Assembly: GCA_019638835.1 (NCBI GenBank)
Contig: JAHBTC010000003.1
Span: 1-57,147 of the forward strand
Direction of reading: 5' to 3'
DNA: 57,147 nucleotides
DNA from: Fimbriimonadaceae bacterium
GTDB lineage: Bacteria; Armatimonadota; Fimbriimonadia; Fimbriimonadales; Fimbriimonadaceae
Made by a program: the position numbers and the translations under genes. Positions 22,846-28,472 of this stretch are shown here, in pieces. Position 1 is the stretch's first letter. The number at the start of each line of letters is the position of its first letter. Under the pieces are notes generated by a model. The model saw nothing but the letters and a program-made list of their open reading frames with translations, searched no databases and was not told where the DNA came from.

Positions 22846-23310
22846 GTGAGTTTCCGCGACTACAAATCTCGAGTCGGTGATGCCTTACGGAGCGCTGACA
22901 CGCCAATTCTTCTTACGCTTATGCTCTTTGGGGGCGTCGGCATTGGTTTTGTTCTCTCGCAAGGTTCGCGAACCCGGCTAGAACTCGCTCTCAGTGCCTT
23001 ACCTCCATCTCTTGCGGCGATCGCGTTGTTCCTCCTGGTGTTTATCGTGCCTGAATTCTGGGGCGAACGCTTTCGTACCCCCCTCAACTTCCTCGTACCC
23101 TTGTTGATGGCAGGATTTGTGTACGCCGCCAGTTCGCTTGCCGATACGGCTGGGATTGCGACCATGCGGTTTGCGGAGTTCGCGCGCACCGACCTGATCT
23201 GGACCCGCCCGCTGGTATTGACCTGTGGTTTTGCCTTGAGCGTGCTGTTCCTTTCGGGCTGGGCGGCAATAAAAGCAAAGGGGCAGCCCAAGGAGCCAGA
23301 CTCTTGCTGA
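22846..23310 (+). CDS. Small integral membrane protein of unknown function
   Basis: 154 residues from GTG 22846, three bases after the csrA stop. Four hydrophobic segments are visible (about residues 20-38, 48-68, 80-100 and 122-142) with a short basic N-terminus and a charged C-terminal tail. No family is recognised. Its end overlaps the TTG start of ribF, so it is probably transcribed with csrA and ribF. A link to flagella is suggested only by position. Confidence 0.65.
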   Translation: MSFRDYKSRVGDALRSADTPILLTLMLFGGVGIGFVLSQGSRTRLELALSALPPSLAAIALFLLVFIVPEFWGERFRTPLNFLVPLLMAGFVYAASSLADTAGIATMRFAEFARTDLIWTRPLVLTCGFALSVLFLSGWAAIKAKGQPKEPDSC

Positions 23311-24221
23311 CCCATTTTGGTACGGCAAGCCTCAAGCCGTTCTGGGAGTCAAGTGTCGTGTGCATCGGCACATTCGACGGAGTCCATCGCGGTCATGCTC
23401 ATGTCATCGGCCGTGCCGTCTCGCTGGCCCACGAATCGGAGCAACCATGCGCTTTGGTGACTTTTGACCGCCACCCCGCACAGGTTCTTCGACCGGCCAC
23501 CCGGCCCCCGATTCTCGCGACCCTCGAGCAGAATCTACGGCAGTTTCGGACACTTGGGGTGTCGATCTGTTTGATTCTTCCTTTCGATCAGTCTCTTGCG
23601 CAAACGGAAGCCGCTGAGTTTGCTAATCACGTGTTCGACGAATGCTTGCGAGCCAAACGCATCGTGGCCGGTCATGACTTCGCATTTGGCAAGGATCGCG
23701 GCGGCACCCCTGAGTGGCTTCGGAGCCGCTACGACACCGAGATTGTTCCCCCATTTTCGCCAGAAGGCACTCGAATCAGCAGTTCAATGATTCGCGAGGC
23801 AGTCGCATCAGGGCAAGTTGAGCGAGCTTGCGAGGCCCTCGGCCGCCCCTTTGCCTTGGCCGGCGTGGTTGTAAAGGGACAGCAGTTAGGGCGAACGCTT
23901 GGATTCCCGACCGCAAACTTGGCCCGAAGTTCAGAACAAGTCGTTCCGGGTGATGGGGTTTATGCGGGATGGGCACACATTGACGGACGAGTTTTCGCCG
24001 CCGCCACGAGCGTCGGGATGCGGCCCACCGTCGGTGGCACCCAGCGAACGGTCGAAGCCTATCTGTTGGATTACCCCGGCGAGGAAATCTACGGCAGGGC
24101 AATGGAACTCTCCTTCGTGACCCGGCTTCGCCCAGAGATGCACTTTGGCACCGTCGAGGAAATGGTTGTCCAAATGCACGAAGACGTGCGCCAGACTCGC
24201 GAGCGCCTTCACTTCTCCTAG
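23304..24221 (+). CDS. ribF: Bifunctional riboflavin kinase / FAD synthetase
   Basis: 305 residues. The TTG at 23304 is chosen because AAGGAG lies 8 bases upstream and no better start precedes the family's first motif. The N-terminal FAD synthetase domain has VVCIGTFDGVHRGHAHVI (the nucleotidyltransferase HxGH-like region) and SSSMIREAVASG (ISSTxIR-like); the C-terminal riboflavin kinase domain has GRTLGFPTANL and the VEAYLLDYPGEEIYG block. It converts riboflavin to FMN and FAD. It overlaps the upstream membrane-protein gene by 7 bases. Confidence 0.95.
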   Translation: MLTHFGTASLKPFWESSVVCIGTFDGVHRGHAHVIGRAVSLAHESEQPCALVTFDRHPAQVLRPATRPPILATLEQNLRQFRTLGVSICLILPFDQSLAQTEAAEFANHVFDECLRAKRIVAGHDFAFGKDRGGTPEWLRSRYDTEIVPPFSPEGTRISSSMIREAVASGQVERACEALGRPFALAGVVVKGQQLGRTLGFPTANLARSSEQVVPGDGVYAGWAHIDGRVFAAATSVGMRPTVGGTQRTVEAYLLDYPGEEIYGRAMELSFVTRLRPEMHFGTVEEMVVQMHEDVRQTRERLHFS

Positions 24222-24224
24222 ACC

Positions 24225-24255
24225 AAAAAAGTGCCCCCGCCACAAGGACGAGGGC
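24225..24255 (-). terminator. Intrinsic terminator of the minus-strand secreted-protein gene
   Basis: Read on the minus strand: GCCCTCG, a 9-base loop and CGGGGGC (7-bp stem with one T:G pair), then AC and six T. It lies 51 bases beyond the stop at 24306 and serves that gene; it may also stop ribF transcripts from the other side. Confidence 0.75.
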
Positions 24256-24305
24256 TAGGGGTGGTTGGTGATGGTTATTTGTTTTTTGGGGATGAGTGCG
24301 ACCCT

Positions 24306-24656
24306 TTAGCGACTGCGGATGTATCCGCTGTAACGCTGTGCCGGGCCATAGTTCTCGAACACAAGATCGAGAGTTGTTCGACGCATGACTTCAACGACCA
24401 CTAAGGGTTCGTTGTCGTCGAGCGTGTCGGATGCGATCAGGCTTCCAGCCCCATCGTAGACTTTGAGATCGAGATCACAAGTCCGGCGGTTGCCTTCGGC
24501 ATATATTGAATAAGTGCCGGGTGTGAACTCGAAAGTGCGCACATGGTACGAGTCTGCACCGAGATTTCCGTTCAGACCCGCGTAAGAACCCGAGATGCCG
24601 AAGGCGGAAACGAGGAGAGAGGCCGCCAACAATCCAAAAGTGAGTCTCCGTTTCAT
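24306..24656 (-). CDS. Small secreted protein with one PPC-like domain (paralogue 1)
   Basis: 116 residues: signal peptide (MKRRLTFGLLAASLLVSAFG...) then one domain of about 85 residues. The domain pattern is GxL, GTYSIYAEG, CDLDLKVYDGAGSLIA, DTLDDNEPLV and ENYGPAQRYSGYIRSR. This resembles the bacterial pre-peptidase C-terminal (PPC) fold, normally an appendage of secreted proteases, but here it stands alone. It is the last of three paralogous genes (24306, 24842, 25393) placed head to tail, each with its own CRP-type operator and promoter. Function unknown; a secreted binding or structural role is likely. Confidence 0.72.
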   Translation of the reverse strand: MKRRLTFGLLAASLLVSAFGISGSYAGLNGNLGADSYHVRTFEFTPGTYSIYAEGNRRTCDLDLKVYDGAGSLIASDTLDDNEPLVVVEVMRRTTLDLVFENYGPAQRYSGYIRSR

Positions 24657-24701
24657 TTTCGTTGTTGTATGCGCTGGGCCTACTCTCCTCTCTACAAACG
24701 T

Positions 24702-24774
24702 AGTATCGCGCCTCAGAAACAGGGGGTCGTCATCTAGTTCACGCGGAAGGTGTGATCTAGATCACACCTTCCGC
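24702..24774 (-). promoter_or_regulatory. CRP-type operator (32-bp palindrome) and promoter of paralogue 1
   Basis: TGTGATCTAGATCACA at 24751-24766 is an exact TGTGA-N6-TCACA site. The symmetry extends outward as GCGGAAGG (24743-24750) and CCTTCCGC (24767-24774), giving a perfect 32-bp palindrome. On the minus strand GATACT at 24707-24702 is a candidate -10 whose centre is 54 bases from the operator centre; no good -35 is visible, as expected for an activator-dependent promoter. The ATG is 45 bases after the -10. Confidence 0.75.
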
Positions 24775-24807
24775 CGACGCTATATGTGAGGGCCGCCGCG
24801 TTCCGTC

Positions 24808-24828
24808 GCAACGACCCCCTGGGGTTGC
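24808..24828 (-). terminator. Hairpin after paralogue 2
   Basis: GCAA...TTGC encloses CCCC...GGGG with a 3-base bulge, 14 bases past the stop at 24842. No T-run follows, so it is a weaker terminator candidate than those of the neighbouring paralogues. Confidence 0.4.
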
Positions 24829-24841
24829 TCTTGAGAGAATC

Positions 24842-25201
24842 TCAGTCCACTTGCCGGATGTATCCGGTGTAGCGCTGGGAAACCCCGTTGTTCACGATCT
24901 CAACGTGGCCGCGTCCGCCGCGATCCAGCGAGAACTCCACGAGTGGCTCGTTGTCGATCAGTTCATCCTTGCCACACAGATTGCCGTATCCGTCATAGAC
25001 GAAGATATCAAGATCGCTGTAAGCATTCGTGCCTTCTAAGTAGATGACATAGTCGCCAGCACTCAAGGTGTAGTCCCGAGTGACTACCGAGTCGGCACCA
25101 ATTCGACCGGATACCGTTTGTCTCCAACCTACGGCGGCCTGAGAAATGGCTAGGGCGCAGACTGCAGAAACGACGAAGATGTTGCGGGTGATGTTTTTCA
25201 T
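24842..25201 (-). CDS. Small secreted protein with one PPC-like domain (paralogue 2)
   Basis: 119 residues from ATG 25201 (MKNITRN), which gives a signal peptide ending near residue 24; the open frame further upstream crosses the promoter and operator. The single domain matches its neighbours: VSGRIGADS, AGDYVIYLEG, SDLDIFVYDGYGNLCG, DELIDNEPLVEF and NNGVSQRYTGYIRQ. An AAGG lies about 13 bases before the start. The leader just before the ATG (AACGGAAAATG) resembles those of paralogues 1 and 3, indicating that gene and control region duplicated together. Confidence 0.72.
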   Translation of the reverse strand: MKNITRNIFVVSAVCALAISQAAVGWRQTVSGRIGADSVVTRDYTLSAGDYVIYLEGTNAYSDLDIFVYDGYGNLCGKDELIDNEPLVEFSLDRGGRGHVEIVNNGVSQRYTGYIRQVD

Positions 25202-25244
25202 TTTCCGTTTTCCTTGAGTCGCTTTCTTTGCGGCTCGTAAGATG

Positions 25245-25310
25245 ATTGTCGCCCAGCGGAAATGCTTGCACCCGCAATGATTCACAGGCGAAATGTGATG
25301 TAGATCACAT
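25245..25310 (-). promoter_or_regulatory. CRP-type operator and promoter of paralogue 2
   Basis: TGTGATGTAGATCACA at 25294-25309 matches TGTGA-N6-TCACA exactly, flanked symmetrically by A and T. On the minus strand GACAAT at 25250-25245 (4 of 6 matches to TATAAT) lies at the same 54-base centre-to-centre distance seen at the other two genes, and 43 bases before the ATG. Confidence 0.72.
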
Positions 25311-25333
25311 CCATCGTTTGCCAAAAACTTGAG

Positions 25334-25373
25334 GTCTCAAAAGGAGACGCCCGCCGGCCAACGGCCGACGGGC
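25334..25373 (-). terminator. Strong double hairpin terminating paralogue 3
   Basis: GCCCG/CGGGC and CGGCC/GGCCG form a long GC-rich stem with an AAC loop at 25349-25373. On the minus strand it is followed by a second small hairpin (GTCTC/GAGAC) whose loop contains TTTT. It starts 19 bases after the stop at 25393. Confidence 0.65.
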
Positions 25374-25392
25374 GAGGTTGATTCCAAAGGGA

Positions 25393-26046
25393 TCAGAGGC
25401 GGCGGATACTTCCGGAATACGCCTGAGCGGCGCCGTAGTTGAACACCTTGATCGTGTAGGACTGGCTGCTGGACACTCGGAACTCAACAATCGGATTGTT
25501 GTCTTCCAATTCGTCCGAGCCCACCAAGTCACCTCGCGAGTTGTAGACAAAGCAGTCAAGATCGCCACGACTATTCCGGCCCGTCAAATCAACCCGATAC
25601 GTGCCATTGGATAGGCTCAGAGTGAACTCATCCGATTCGGACTCGACCAAGTAGCCCTCCATCGTGCGCATGAAACTCTGTGGAGCCGTGACCCCCGTTG
25701 ATCGAATGTTTCCCCGATAGGACTGTGACACCCCATAGTTCATCACTTGAACGGTGTACGTACCAGTTGAAGCGGCCCGGAAATCAACGATCGGATTGTT
25801 ATCGTCGAGATCATCACTCCCAATCAGATCGCCGTCCGCATTGTAAACAAAGCAGTCAAGATCTCCCCGAGTGTTACCACCGGTCAAATCCACCTTATAG
25901 TCTCCACGCGTCAAGGCAAACTCAAACTCCTTACTGTCTCCTTCCCCGAGATATCCACTGATCGAACGCTCCCAGAATGTTGCTTGTGCGATGGCGATGG
26001 CCGCAACGCAGCCAAAGGCGACGAGGTTTCGATTGATGTTCATCAT
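25393..26046 (-). CDS. Secreted protein with two tandem PPC-like domains (paralogue 3)
   Basis: 217 residues from adjacent ATGs at 26046 and 26043. A signal peptide (to about residue 22) is followed by two copies of the domain in the neighbouring genes, at about residues 25-115 and 127-216. Both contain DLDCFVYN, a GDL(I/V)GSD block, a D(L/E)xDNNPIV block and NYG(V/A)(S/A)Q(S/A)Y(R/S)G. A TGVTAPQS linker joins them. The two copies are more alike to each other than to the single-domain paralogues, so the second arose by internal duplication. AGGA lies about 11 bases before the start. Function unknown. Confidence 0.75.
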   Translation of the reverse strand: MMNINRNLVAFGCVAAIAIAQATFWERSISGYLGEGDSKEFEFALTRGDYKVDLTGGNTRGDLDCFVYNADGDLIGSDDLDDNNPIVDFRAASTGTYTVQVMNYGVSQSYRGNIRSTGVTAPQSFMRTMEGYLVESESDEFTLSLSNGTYRVDLTGRNSRGDLDCFVYNSRGDLVGSDELEDNNPIVEFRVSSSQSYTIKVFNYGAAQAYSGSIRRL

Positions 26047-26087
26047 TTTCGTTTCCTAGAGCCGTCTCAAATTTGGCTCATGCAAAC

Positions 26088-26152
26088 AGTATCACGTCAC
26101 CAAAATCAGATGAAAGTCGTTCATTCACACGTCATAGGTGATTTAGATCACA
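26088..26152 (-). promoter_or_regulatory. CRP-type operator and promoter of paralogue 3
   Basis: GGTGATTTAGATCACA at 26137-26152 differs from TGTGA-N6-TCACA by one base and overlaps the stop codon of the regulator gene. On the minus strand GATACT at 26093-26088 is identical to the -10 of paralogue 1 and lies at the same 54-base centre distance. The ATG is 41-44 bases downstream. Confidence 0.68.
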
Positions 26153-26867
26153 AAGGAGCAGCCATCGCCTTCAGAGCTTTGATCTGTATAAGAATAATCC
26201 TTTGTTTTTCATCATATTCGATCAGCCCTTCTCGGCGCCAACGTCCCAATGCTTTGTTCGTGTGTTCTCGGGAGCAGTGGATGAGACGCGACAATGTCTT
26301 CTGACTAAGTTCAAGCGGAATCAACACGGTTCGGTCTTCGCGCCGAATTCCCGTTCGCCTTGCCAAGTCAATAAGGGTATGCGCTAATCGCGCGTCGGCT
26401 GACCAAAACGATGCAACTCTGTCGGTGATACTTTCCACCAGTTTTTCGCCAAGTAACTTGATCATCCCCATAGCGATGAGTGGGTCGTCTTCTAACCCTT
26501 CCTGAATCTGCACTCCTGACCAAGCGTAGACACGGCATTCGGTCATCGCAATTACGTCCGCTGTCCGTCCCGACTCGACGACCATGGAGAGTTCCCCAAT
26601 GATCTCTCCTGGCCCCCTCAGTTTGAGAAGCGTACTTTCCCCCGGTGCAGTTTCTGATTCGATGCTGAGAAATCCTTCAAGAATGATGAATAGCAATCCC
26701 GCCGGGTCATCTTTGAAGAACAGATTGTTGCCCTCCGCCACTTTCCGAATACTTCCGCCGGAACAGTACTGAGCGATTTGCGATTCACTTAACTCCTGAA
26801 AGAGGAGCGACTTGGACAGCAGTTCGATCACTTCCGATGGTGCGGGCGACTTTGCGATATGGCTCAA
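26148..26867 (-). CDS. CRP/FNR-family transcription regulator
   Basis: 239 residues from TTG 26867, whose first bases overlap the cyclase-like gene's TGA (TTGA) and which has AAGGAG 10 bases upstream. Residues about 20-140 form a cyclic-nucleotide-binding domain with a phosphate-binding cassette (GEL 91-93, RTA 101-103) like that of E. coli CRP, so cNMP binding is likely. The C-terminal winged helix has recognition helix CSREHTNKAL (198-207); R200 and E201 correspond to CRP R180 and E181, which read TGTGA. That agrees with the TGTGA-type sites before the next three genes. It lacks the N-terminal cysteines of FNR. Confidence 0.9.
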   Translation of the reverse strand: MSHIAKSPAPSEVIELLSKSLLFQELSESQIAQYCSGGSIRKVAEGNNLFFKDDPAGLLFIILEGFLSIESETAPGESTLLKLRGPGEIIGELSMVVESGRTADVIAMTECRVYAWSGVQIQEGLEDDPLIAMGMIKLLGEKLVESITDRVASFWSADARLAHTLIDLARRTGIRREDRTVLIPLELSQKTLSRLIHCSREHTNKALGRWRREGLIEYDEKQRIILIQIKALKAMAAPL

Positions 26868-27940
26868 TTGGGCATGTCTCCTTGTCGGATAGGGGTTCCA
26901 TCACCTTGCGCGTTGCCTCCTCCTGGCCGGAAGTTGGGGGTGACGTCAATACTCTGTTCGCCGTTCGGTCGAGACGAGTCAGGGACGAAATCGTTGGTGC
27001 CTTGGTTTAAGGGTCGCGTTCGCGAGCGACCGTCCTCGTTGGTATTCGAGAAACCCGTTCGGTCGGGCTCCGCCTTCGGGATCTCAATCGGCTTGTCTTC
27101 CAAATCTGCCTGGGACGTAGTCTCAACACTTGAAGGAAGAGTTGGATTCGGCTCGTTTTGTCTCGACTGATAAATTTGGAATCCCATTGCTCCGAACGAA
27201 CCGAGAATGATCACAAGCAATACCAGGATGTAAGCCGTCCTCGCCCGCTGGTCGCCTTCCTCGTACTTCTTTTGAATCGCGCTGAGCTCATTTTTCCTAT
27301 GCTCGTCCTTAACGCCATCAAAAAATGCCCTTGCCGCGTCGCCGCTCAACTCTTCATCGGTCAGCGGTTGGTCCACGGGAGGCATGATTCGATAAGCACG
27401 CACTGAATGCGGAACCCCTTTGATATCAACCGGCCCAAGAAAGTGGCGGCGGTACTTGAGGTTAGAACGCGCGATGTTGTCAATCTCCTCGGAGACGATG
27501 ATCTCATTGGGTCCAGCCATCTGCTCCAGGCGGGCCGCGACCGCGACGGCCATCCCACTCACGGTGCCTTCTACCATCACGATATCGGAAGCGTGAATGC
27601 CGATGCGATGCCGAATCGGGAGTCGGTCCTTGGCTTCCGCATTGTCTTGCCGAGACCACTCCAACATATGGAGAGCCGCCTCCAAAGTCCGAACGGGGCT
27701 TGGGAAAACGGCCTTCCAACCATCGCCACGGTCTGTGACGATAGAACCTCCCGACTCTTCGATGAATTTGCGGAATTGAGTGAGGTGACGGCGCACCTCG
27801 CGAACGATAGACTCTTCGGCTTGAGACGTCATTGACGTGAAGCCGTGAATGTCCGATTGAAGGACCGTCGCAAACTGGCGACCGACCTCCTCCGTCGCTG
27901 GTTCAGGACGTGGAGATTCCATCACACCACCCGTACGCAT
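26864..27940 (-). CDS. Membrane protein with N-terminal class III nucleotidyl cyclase domain
   Basis: 358 residues from ATG 27940 (or ATG 27922). Residues about 20-185 form a class III cyclase homology domain: metal-binding D30 in SDIHGFTSMT and D73 in RGDG, HRIGIHAS near 111, and VAARLEQ near 134 with R137. Two usual catalytic residues differ: the purine-binding lysine position is T69 and the transition-state asparagine position is A133. A helix at 236-257 spans the membrane, leaving a proline- and asparagine-rich tail of about 100 residues outside. It is coupled to the CRP gene, so it is the obvious candidate source or modulator of its ligand. Confidence 0.85.
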   Translation of the reverse strand: MRTGGVMESPRPEPATEEVGRQFATVLQSDIHGFTSMTSQAEESIVREVRRHLTQFRKFIEESGGSIVTDRGDGWKAVFPSPVRTLEAALHMLEWSRQDNAEAKDRLPIRHRIGIHASDIVMVEGTVSGMAVAVAARLEQMAGPNEIIVSEEIDNIARSNLKYRRHFLGPVDIKGVPHSVRAYRIMPPVDQPLTDEELSGDAARAFFDGVKDEHRKNELSAIQKKYEEGDQRARTAYILVLLVIILGSFGAMGFQIYQSRQNEPNPTLPSSVETTSQADLEDKPIEIPKAEPDRTGFSNTNEDGRSRTRPLNQGTNDFVPDSSRPNGEQSIDVTPNFRPGGGNAQGDGTPIRQGDMPN

Positions 27941-27995: not shown

Positions 27996-28472
27996 ATGAA
28001 GCGCAATTTGCTCATTCTCTTCGGCGTAATCGTGGTCGCGCTCTTGAGTGTTGGATTTGTGGTCGCTTCCCGGCAACCAAGTGACGAAGCTTTGATTCGC
28101 GATTCGCTCGAGTCGGCTGTCGCCGCGAGCCGCGATGGTGCGCCGGGGAGCCTTTACGCCGAACTTAGCCGAAGCCTTGAAGTAAACGGGCAGATGGTTG
28201 GTCGCGATCCGGAAGTCAATGAGTTCATTAAGAAACTCAAACCCGAAATTGCTCTGGGGGAATACACGCCTGTTGTGGACGGCGACACGGCAACCGTCAC
28301 AACCGCCGCGAACGTTACTTTCGGTCTTGGTAACTTTTCGAACACGCAGGTCATCAACCGAGTTGAGATTGAGTTTGCAAGGGAGAGAGCCACCAAATGG
28401 GTTTTCATCCCGACCCACAAGTGGCGAATTACAAAGGTGAGCGCGCCCGATTTTGTTGCGCCCGACTACTGA
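27996..28472 (+). CDS. Membrane-anchored protein of unknown function
   Basis: 158 residues. One N-terminal membrane helix (about residues 5-25) is followed by a soluble domain with alternating helix and beta segments (RDSLESAVAASRDG then VNGDTATVTTAANV-like strands), reminiscent of NTF2-like or DUF4878-type lipoprotein-like domains, but I cannot assign it. It runs divergently from the cyclase gene with a 55-base gap that must hold both promoters. Its end overlaps the convergent SRPBCC gene by 7 bases. Confidence 0.6.
   Translation: MKRNLLILFGVIVVALLSVGFVVASRQPSDEALIRDSLESAVAASRDGAPGSLYAELSRSLEVNGQMVGRDPEVNEFIKKLKPEIALGEYTPVVDGDTATVTTAANVTFGLGNFSNTQVINRVEIEFARERATKWVFIPTHKWRITKVSAPDFVAPDY

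Follow-up and report, generated by a model that had tools for sequence, protein, structure and literature searches.

The window analyzed here is a 57,147-nucleotide stretch from a Fimbriimonadaceae bacterium (Armatimonadota; assembly GCA_019638835.1, contig JAHBTC010000003.1, our contig C131 of a 2.74-Mb, 207-contig genome). Between ribF and a small plus-strand gene, it carries five minus-strand genes, which encode a class III cyclase-fold protein, a CRP-family regulator and three PPC proteins (PPC3, PPC2 and PPC1) that are predicted to be secreted. The first-pass annotation of this DNA had described a self-contained cassette in which a cyclase-like gene is coupled to a CRP gene through a TTGA overlap and followed by three paralogous secreted PPC genes; gene calls, Pfam matches and sequence identities bear out this arrangement of genes. 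The five genes are:

26864..27940, minus strand: class III cyclase-fold protein, 358 residues; cyclase domain at the N-terminus, then a single membrane helix and a disordered tail at the C-terminus
26148..26867, minus strand: CRP-family regulator, 239 residues; TTG start, 4-bp overlap with the cyclase stop codon (TTGA)
25393..26046, minus strand: PPC3, predicted secreted, two PPC domains, 217 residues; PF04151 match in two stretches
24842..25201, minus strand: PPC2, predicted secreted, one PPC-fold domain, 119 residues; assigned as a paralogue of PPC3 and by predicted structure
24306..24656, minus strand: PPC1, predicted secreted, one PPC-fold domain, 116 residues; assigned as a paralogue of PPC2 and PPC3

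The first gene product matches the Pfam family Guanylate_cyc (PF00211, 4.2e-12), and the predicted structure of its cyclase domain matches the class III cyclases 3mr7, 4wp8, 1ybu and 1wc1, with a target TM-score of up to 0.92. In the model of the whole protein, the cyclase domain is followed by one long helix that includes the membrane span, and then by the disordered tail; no sensor domain was recognized. The metal-binding residues Asp30 and Asp73 and the transition-state residue Arg137 are retained. In the following, we refer to this protein as a cyclase, which is an assignment of fold rather than of activity.

The regulator, whose TTG start has an AAGGAG 10 nt on its 5' side, has the two domains of the CRP family, an N-terminal cNMP_binding domain (PF00027, 2.1e-15) and a C-terminal HTH_Crp_2 domain (PF13545, 3.7e-14), and its relatives in the PDB are GlxR and mycobacterial CRP. 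As the first-pass annotation had proposed, its recognition helix keeps the Arg and Glu (R200 and E201) of the R, E, R set that reads TGTGA, and its phosphate-binding cassette (GE...R(S/T)A; G91, E92 and R101, T102, A103) suits a cyclic nucleotide. The third base-reading Arg is K205 here. We infer that the ligand is a cyclic nucleotide, most likely cyclic AMP (cAMP). The regulator is the only full-length CRP homolog detected in the genome, the second match being a 155-residue frame with the binding domain alone.

Of the three PPC proteins, PPC3 is recognized by Pfam (PF04151, 1.8e-10; 42 bits against a curated cut-off of 25.9), and since the match falls in two stretches we assign it two PPC domains. 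PPC1 and PPC2 have no Pfam match by themselves; PPC1 and both domains of PPC3 are 34–42% identical to PPC2. The predicted structure of PPC2 (predicted local distance difference test score, pLDDT, 83) matches the beta-jelly roll of Tk-SP, the clostridial ColG/ColH and the PPC domain of a Bacillus collagenase, and PPC2 is predicted by this model to have the PPC/collagen-binding beta-sandwich fold. A signal-peptide-like stretch is present at the N-terminus of PPC3. The start of PPC2 was taken as ATG; a longer frame with a TTG start at 25324 would cover the operator in front of this gene.

In agreement with the earlier description, a TGTGA-N6-TCACA site lies before each PPC gene, two of the three being exact and one having a single mismatch. 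Each of these operators is accompanied by a half-site and by a -10-like hexamer on its promoter-proximal side:

24751..24766, minus strand: operator 1, before PPC1, TGTGATCTAGATCACA; TGTGA-N6-TCACA, 0 mismatches
25294..25309, minus strand: operator 2, before PPC2, TGTGATCTACATCACA; TGTGA-N6-TCACA, 0 mismatches
26137..26152, minus strand: operator 3, before PPC3, TGTGATCTAAATCACC; 1 mismatch, overlaps the CRP stop codon
24739..24743, minus strand: half-site CGTGA, 23 bp promoter-proximal of operator 1
25282..25286, minus strand: half-site TGTGA, 23 bp promoter-proximal of operator 2
26125..26129, minus strand: half-site TGTGA, 23 bp promoter-proximal of operator 3
24702..24707, minus strand: -10-like hexamer GATACT of PPC1, 54 bp from the center of operator 1
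25245..25250, minus strand: -10-like hexamer GACAAT of PPC2, 54 bp from the center of operator 2
26088..26093, minus strand: -10-like hexamer GATACT of PPC3, 54 bp from the center of operator 3

The half-site spacing of 23 bp is counted from the operator start, and the distance from operator center to start codon is 102.5 bp for PPC1, 100.5 bp for PPC2 and 98.5 bp for PPC3. Among offsets of 22–99 bp, 54 bp is the only one at which all three promoters reach at least 4/6 matches to TATAAT, and a triple coincidence of this kind at some offset of 50–57 bp occurred at a frequency of 0.0008 in shuffled sequences. The loose motif (at most two mismatches) is not enriched in the window (20 matches vs 20.7 in shuffles), so that the argument for enrichment rests on these spacings and on the tighter shared motif TGTGATNNANATCACM, which has 7 strand-matches in the window vs 0.11 expected, a number equalled in 0 of 100 shuffles. 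Exact matches to TGTGATNNAGATCACA in the 2.74-Mb genome are confined to operators 1 and 2. The only other exact TGTGAN6TCACA in the genome, on contig C164 (G000:C164:26115-26130; L122 2516-2531), is flanked by two divergent genes, one for a lipoprotein-like protein and the other for a protein that also looks exported. At 24464-24479, a CRP-type site with one mismatch, TGAGATCGAGATCACA, falls within the PPC1 coding sequence and was set aside as probably coincidental.

CRP of E. coli activates from class I positions near -61.5 and class II positions near -41.5. If the -10 hexamer of the PPC promoters occupies its standard position, CRP would be placed there at about -63.5 and at about -40.5, close to these two activating positions. 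The three promoters thus share, beyond chance, the geometry of a predicted composite class I/II CRP promoter.

We then determined how far the cyclase–CRP pair extends among 100 relatives. The seven best CRP matches are all in genomes that hold one of the eight best cyclase matches, and in all seven of these pair-carrying relatives the two genes are adjacent; the 4-bp overlap of CRP start and cyclase stop recurs in G042, G038 and G053. Counting that of the window, the eight paired CRPs form one clade (support 97/96), in which R200 and E201 of the recognition helix and the G, E and R of the phosphate-binding cassette are kept throughout; the position of K205 is occupied by Arg in the paired CRPs of the relatives. 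Those pair-carrying records that are named belong to the Fimbriimonadaceae, the Chthonomonadaceae and other Armatimonadota. A contig scan with a single peptide pattern, which distant members could escape, found seven loci, all of them pairs already known.

A tandem operator accompanies the pair. When we searched for pairs of TGTGAN6TCACA sites whose starts are separated by 23 bp (at most 3/20 mismatches), such a tandem was present in 7 of the 8 family genomes with the pair vs 2 of the 53 without it (p 6e-7), while the reversed tandem pattern occurred in 1 of 101 genomes. At sites that had not been selected for tandemness, a half-site lies at 23 bp in 5 of 14 cases, and every other spacing occurs at most once. 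Furthermore, the target promoters of the relatives have in common a -10 peak at 54–55 bp (7 of 17, with a mean of 1.0 per offset pair). Tandems of 23 bp were also found in G095, G099 and G100, three genomes of the phylum that are more distant. In G100, a different cyclase-like gene directly precedes a CRP gene (L189 1493-3478), and the 23-bp tandems of that genome are located elsewhere. Because the cyclase–CRP couple recurs in seven relatives together with its own signature DNA sites, we regard it as a real and largely undescribed module.

Taking these observations together, we consider it likely that the locus works as a local regulatory module of the CRP type, in which the cyclase and CRP control the three downstream PPC genes. 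The membrane-anchored, divergent class III cyclase would make or report the ligand of the co-translated CRP homolog. The liganded CRP dimer would then bind the strong palindrome centered at about -63.5, would also occupy, probably cooperatively, the weaker site or half-site centered at about -40.5, and, by class I plus class II activation, would recruit RNA polymerase to the -10 hexamer, which lies 54 bp away from the main operator, whereupon the small PPC-fold proteins would be exported. Both the binding of the regulator to the three operators and the direction of its control of the PPC genes are inferred.

Several findings weigh against this reading. The -10 calls are hexamers with 4/6 matches only, and no operator was found ahead of the window's own cyclase. 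The PPC genes adjoin the pair in 0 of the 7 relatives, and the whole five-gene cassette is missing at the corresponding site in two same-genus genomes. In the cyclase itself, the substrate-specifying Lys and Asp and the transition-state Asn expected of a class III enzyme are T69, T126 and A133, respectively; the genome contains six class III cyclase-domain matches, and two of the others have the canonical Lys, Asn and Arg.

The first-pass annotation had called for conserved synteny of the cassette and its operators. What is conserved across genera is the pair and the operators; the PPC genes are not part of it, and the cassette as a whole is not constant even within the genus. Its flanks are:

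23304-24221, plus strand: ribF, flanking the cassette
27996-28472, plus strand: small gene, flanking the cassette on the other side

In both same-genus genomes these flanking genes have the same order, ribF being followed after about 72 bp by the homolog of the gene at 27996-28472, and because the cassette is absent there its makeup may be recent. This clean absence is the sole pointer to gain or loss as a unit. An origin from a mobile element was rejected, there being no clear shift in composition (GC content 0.50–0.57 vs 0.54–0.59 around it) and no element genes among the five. That PPC genes are separate from the pair in the relatives and that close genomes lack the cassette would be expected if the operators were coincidental or served another regulator, and the five genes were neighbors by chance. 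Against this stand the motif statistics, the identical spacings in three promoters and the matching operator grammar beside CRPs of the same clade in other genera, and we regard chance association as very improbable.

The state of the cyclase active site raises a more serious alternative. In all eight paired cyclases, the metal Asp residues and the Arg are invariant, and the three remaining residues are replaced: the substrate Lys by T in the window and by A or S in the other seven, the canonical Asp by T/H/Q/V/Q/Q/N/E, and the transition-state Asn by A, or by T in G025. In all eight, the second metal Asp is also surrounded by an RGDG-x-K motif that does not vary (Arg71 and Lys76 here). The combined loss of Lys, Asp and Asn is unusual for a class III cyclase, which makes a local source of the ligand doubtful, and CRP could be fed from elsewhere, since canonical class III cyclases are present elsewhere in the genome. 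Thus, the paired cyclase may be non-catalytic or make another product, with cAMP coming from other cyclases, while the paired protein binds nucleotide and tunes CRP or partners an active cyclase. The shared substitutions and the common RGDG-x-K motif, the two canonical cyclases elsewhere, and the clustering of Rhodospirillum centenum cgrA with guanylyl cyclase subunits that are described as non-catalytic (PMC4681086) are all in line with this alternative. However, none of the eight proteins has lost either metal Asp or the Arg; Ma1120, with Ala in place of the Asn, is an active enzyme that loses its activity once the Asn is restored, and known cyclases differ from one another at the Asp position (PMC4215837). 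For the Lys-to-Thr change, we found no active precedent. On balance, we give this alternative somewhat less than an even chance.

For the same reasons, the epithet 'self-contained' used in the first-pass annotation is unproven: the paired cyclase lacks the substrate residues and the Asn, and canonical cyclases are encoded elsewhere. The genome also has 57 TGTGA sites (at most one mismatch) vs 33 for a reversed-pattern control, and with other cyclases and this excess of sites neither the source of the ligand nor the regulon need be local.

The genes behind CRP-type sites in the seven relatives often encode lipoproteins or exported proteins. Using a simple signal-peptide rule of our own and excluding the window's own genes from the target count, we determined that 19 of 39 predicted targets qualify as having a signal peptide, compared with 26 of 127 genes from regions picked at random in these genomes (p 8e-4). 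The excess is not significant against TGTGA sites in genomes without the pair (8 of 25, p 0.14). The notion of a clade-specific 'secretome regulator' is therefore only partly supported, there being enrichment over random genes but no significant one over control TGTGA sites, and we read the regulon as biased to exported proteins rather than as a proven secretome switch. In G025, a stretch that may be a CRP-controlled operon (L112 2651-5501) consists of a tandem operator, an exported-protein gene, a second exported protein and a caspase-like protein with YSGHG, identified by eye. In a genome without the pair, an exact TGTGAN6TCACA precedes by about 50 bp a frame that starts with the cyclase-like DAVGYS (L206 2071-3942, G003:C8).

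In several relatives the tandem operator lies at the genes of the pair itself, ahead of the cyclase in G038, G053 and G055 and ahead of CRP in G025 (exact or with at most two mismatches), where it starts at or 2 bases after the hexamers TATAAT, TATAAT, TAAACT and TACAAT, respectively. Because the tandem abuts the -10 of the cyclase or CRP gene in these four genomes, it suggests autorepression of the cyclase–CRP genes. In related genera, the CRP clade would thus repress its own genes through a full tandem operator on the -10/+1 region and would also control other, often exported, proteins. Such tandems, directly on or behind the -10, give some weight to the idea that the operators of the window repress the PPC genes too. 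Yet each PPC operator lies upstream of its -10, at a distance that is constant and near class I spacing, and the half-site occupies the class II position; repression at these promoters seems to us unlikely.

Many of the sites are embedded in longer symmetry. Operator 1 is within a 32-bp perfect palindrome (24743-24774), and at exact sites of the pair genomes the flanks beyond the CRP core are complementary more often than expected by chance (89 of 228 at positions 1–6, p 1e-5), an excess that is not seen at sites of genomes lacking the pair (p 0.87). Long palindromes around CRP-type sites were also seen in L151, L152, L112 and L119, and 9-bp arms in G057. These palindromes exceed what CRP contacts would need, and we propose no mechanism for them.

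The locus provides, for the Armatimonadota, a CRP system that is compact and can be tested. It couples a divergent cyclase subfamily to a CRP whose operators follow a defined grammar, made up of a palindrome, a half-site at 23 bp and a -10 at 54 bp. Because this grammar is defined, the identity of the ligand and the switch between activation and repression could be addressed with few reagents. More tentatively, and with clearly less than an even chance, the tail-anchored cyclase subfamily (RGDG-x-K, without Lys, Asp and Asn) might supply its own CRP with a non-standard cyclic nucleotide, or serve this CRP as a co-regulator that senses nucleotide. The CRP would read a fixed 23-bp tandem and toggle between repressing its own genes and activating those for exported, adhesion-like proteins. 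A literature search for CRP and adenylate cyclase in Armatimonadetes returned no paper, and we did not find standalone PPC-only outputs of a cyclase–CRP pair described in the literature.

Among known systems, E. coli CRP promoters share with the locus the operator consensus, the recognition-helix R and E, and operator positions near -61.5/-41.5. They differ from it in that here the 23-bp tandem is fixed, the main operator is nearer -63.5, Lys replaces the third base-reading Arg, and the regulator gene is paired with a cyclase gene. The cyclase resembles Ma1120, Rv1900c and CyaC (PDB 4wp8, 1ybu and 1wc1) in its fold, both metal Asp residues and the Arg, and Ma1120 likewise has Ala at the Asn position (PMC4215837). 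However, Ma1120 keeps Lys and Asp, whereas the Fimbriimonadaceae protein has Thr at both and the invariant Arg71/Lys76 around the second metal Asp, and, unlike in these three enzymes, its cyclase domain precedes a single membrane helix. The R. centenum RC1_3785-gcyB-gcyC-cgrA locus is similar in that a CRP homolog is clustered with cyclase genes and regulation runs through a TGTGA-N6-TCACA site. It differs in its ligand (cyclic GMP), in feed-forward activation and in its output, cyst development, and PPC genes are not reported in the accessible text of PMC4681086.

The layout is close to that of the Sinorhizobium meliloti clr–cyaD1–SMc02177–SMc02178 locus. There, cAMP-bound Clr acts from a class I site to switch on a neighboring gene whose product is periplasmic; at SMc02178 the Clr box is centered 61.5 bp from the transcription start, and the periplasmic location of the output is experimental (PMC5498481, PMC4222275). 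This weakens the claim of the first-pass annotation that no such system had been described. Both loci have a class III cyclase gene, a gene of the CRP family whose product depends on cyclic nucleotide monophosphates or is predicted to, adjacent genes for exported proteins without known function that CRP activates or would activate, and class I spacing, a likeness of layout, operator geometry and presumed working. The known S. meliloti cyclases, of which there are three, are receptor-like and active; Clr reads a TGTTCC-N4-GGAACA-type box in place of TGTGA-N6-TCACA; and the outputs are not PPC proteins, the phylum is different, and a 23-bp tandem grammar was not found in the available descriptions. 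In Sinorhizobium, a similar layout controls the frequency of root infection, and because of this similarity cyclase–CRP–exported-protein loci may be a recurring route to cue-driven surface change. The Fimbriimonadaceae locus departs from the S. meliloti and R. centenum systems in the subfamily of its cyclase, in the grammar of its operators, in having PPC proteins as outputs and in its phylum, and in these respects appears to be new, while the layout itself was already known.

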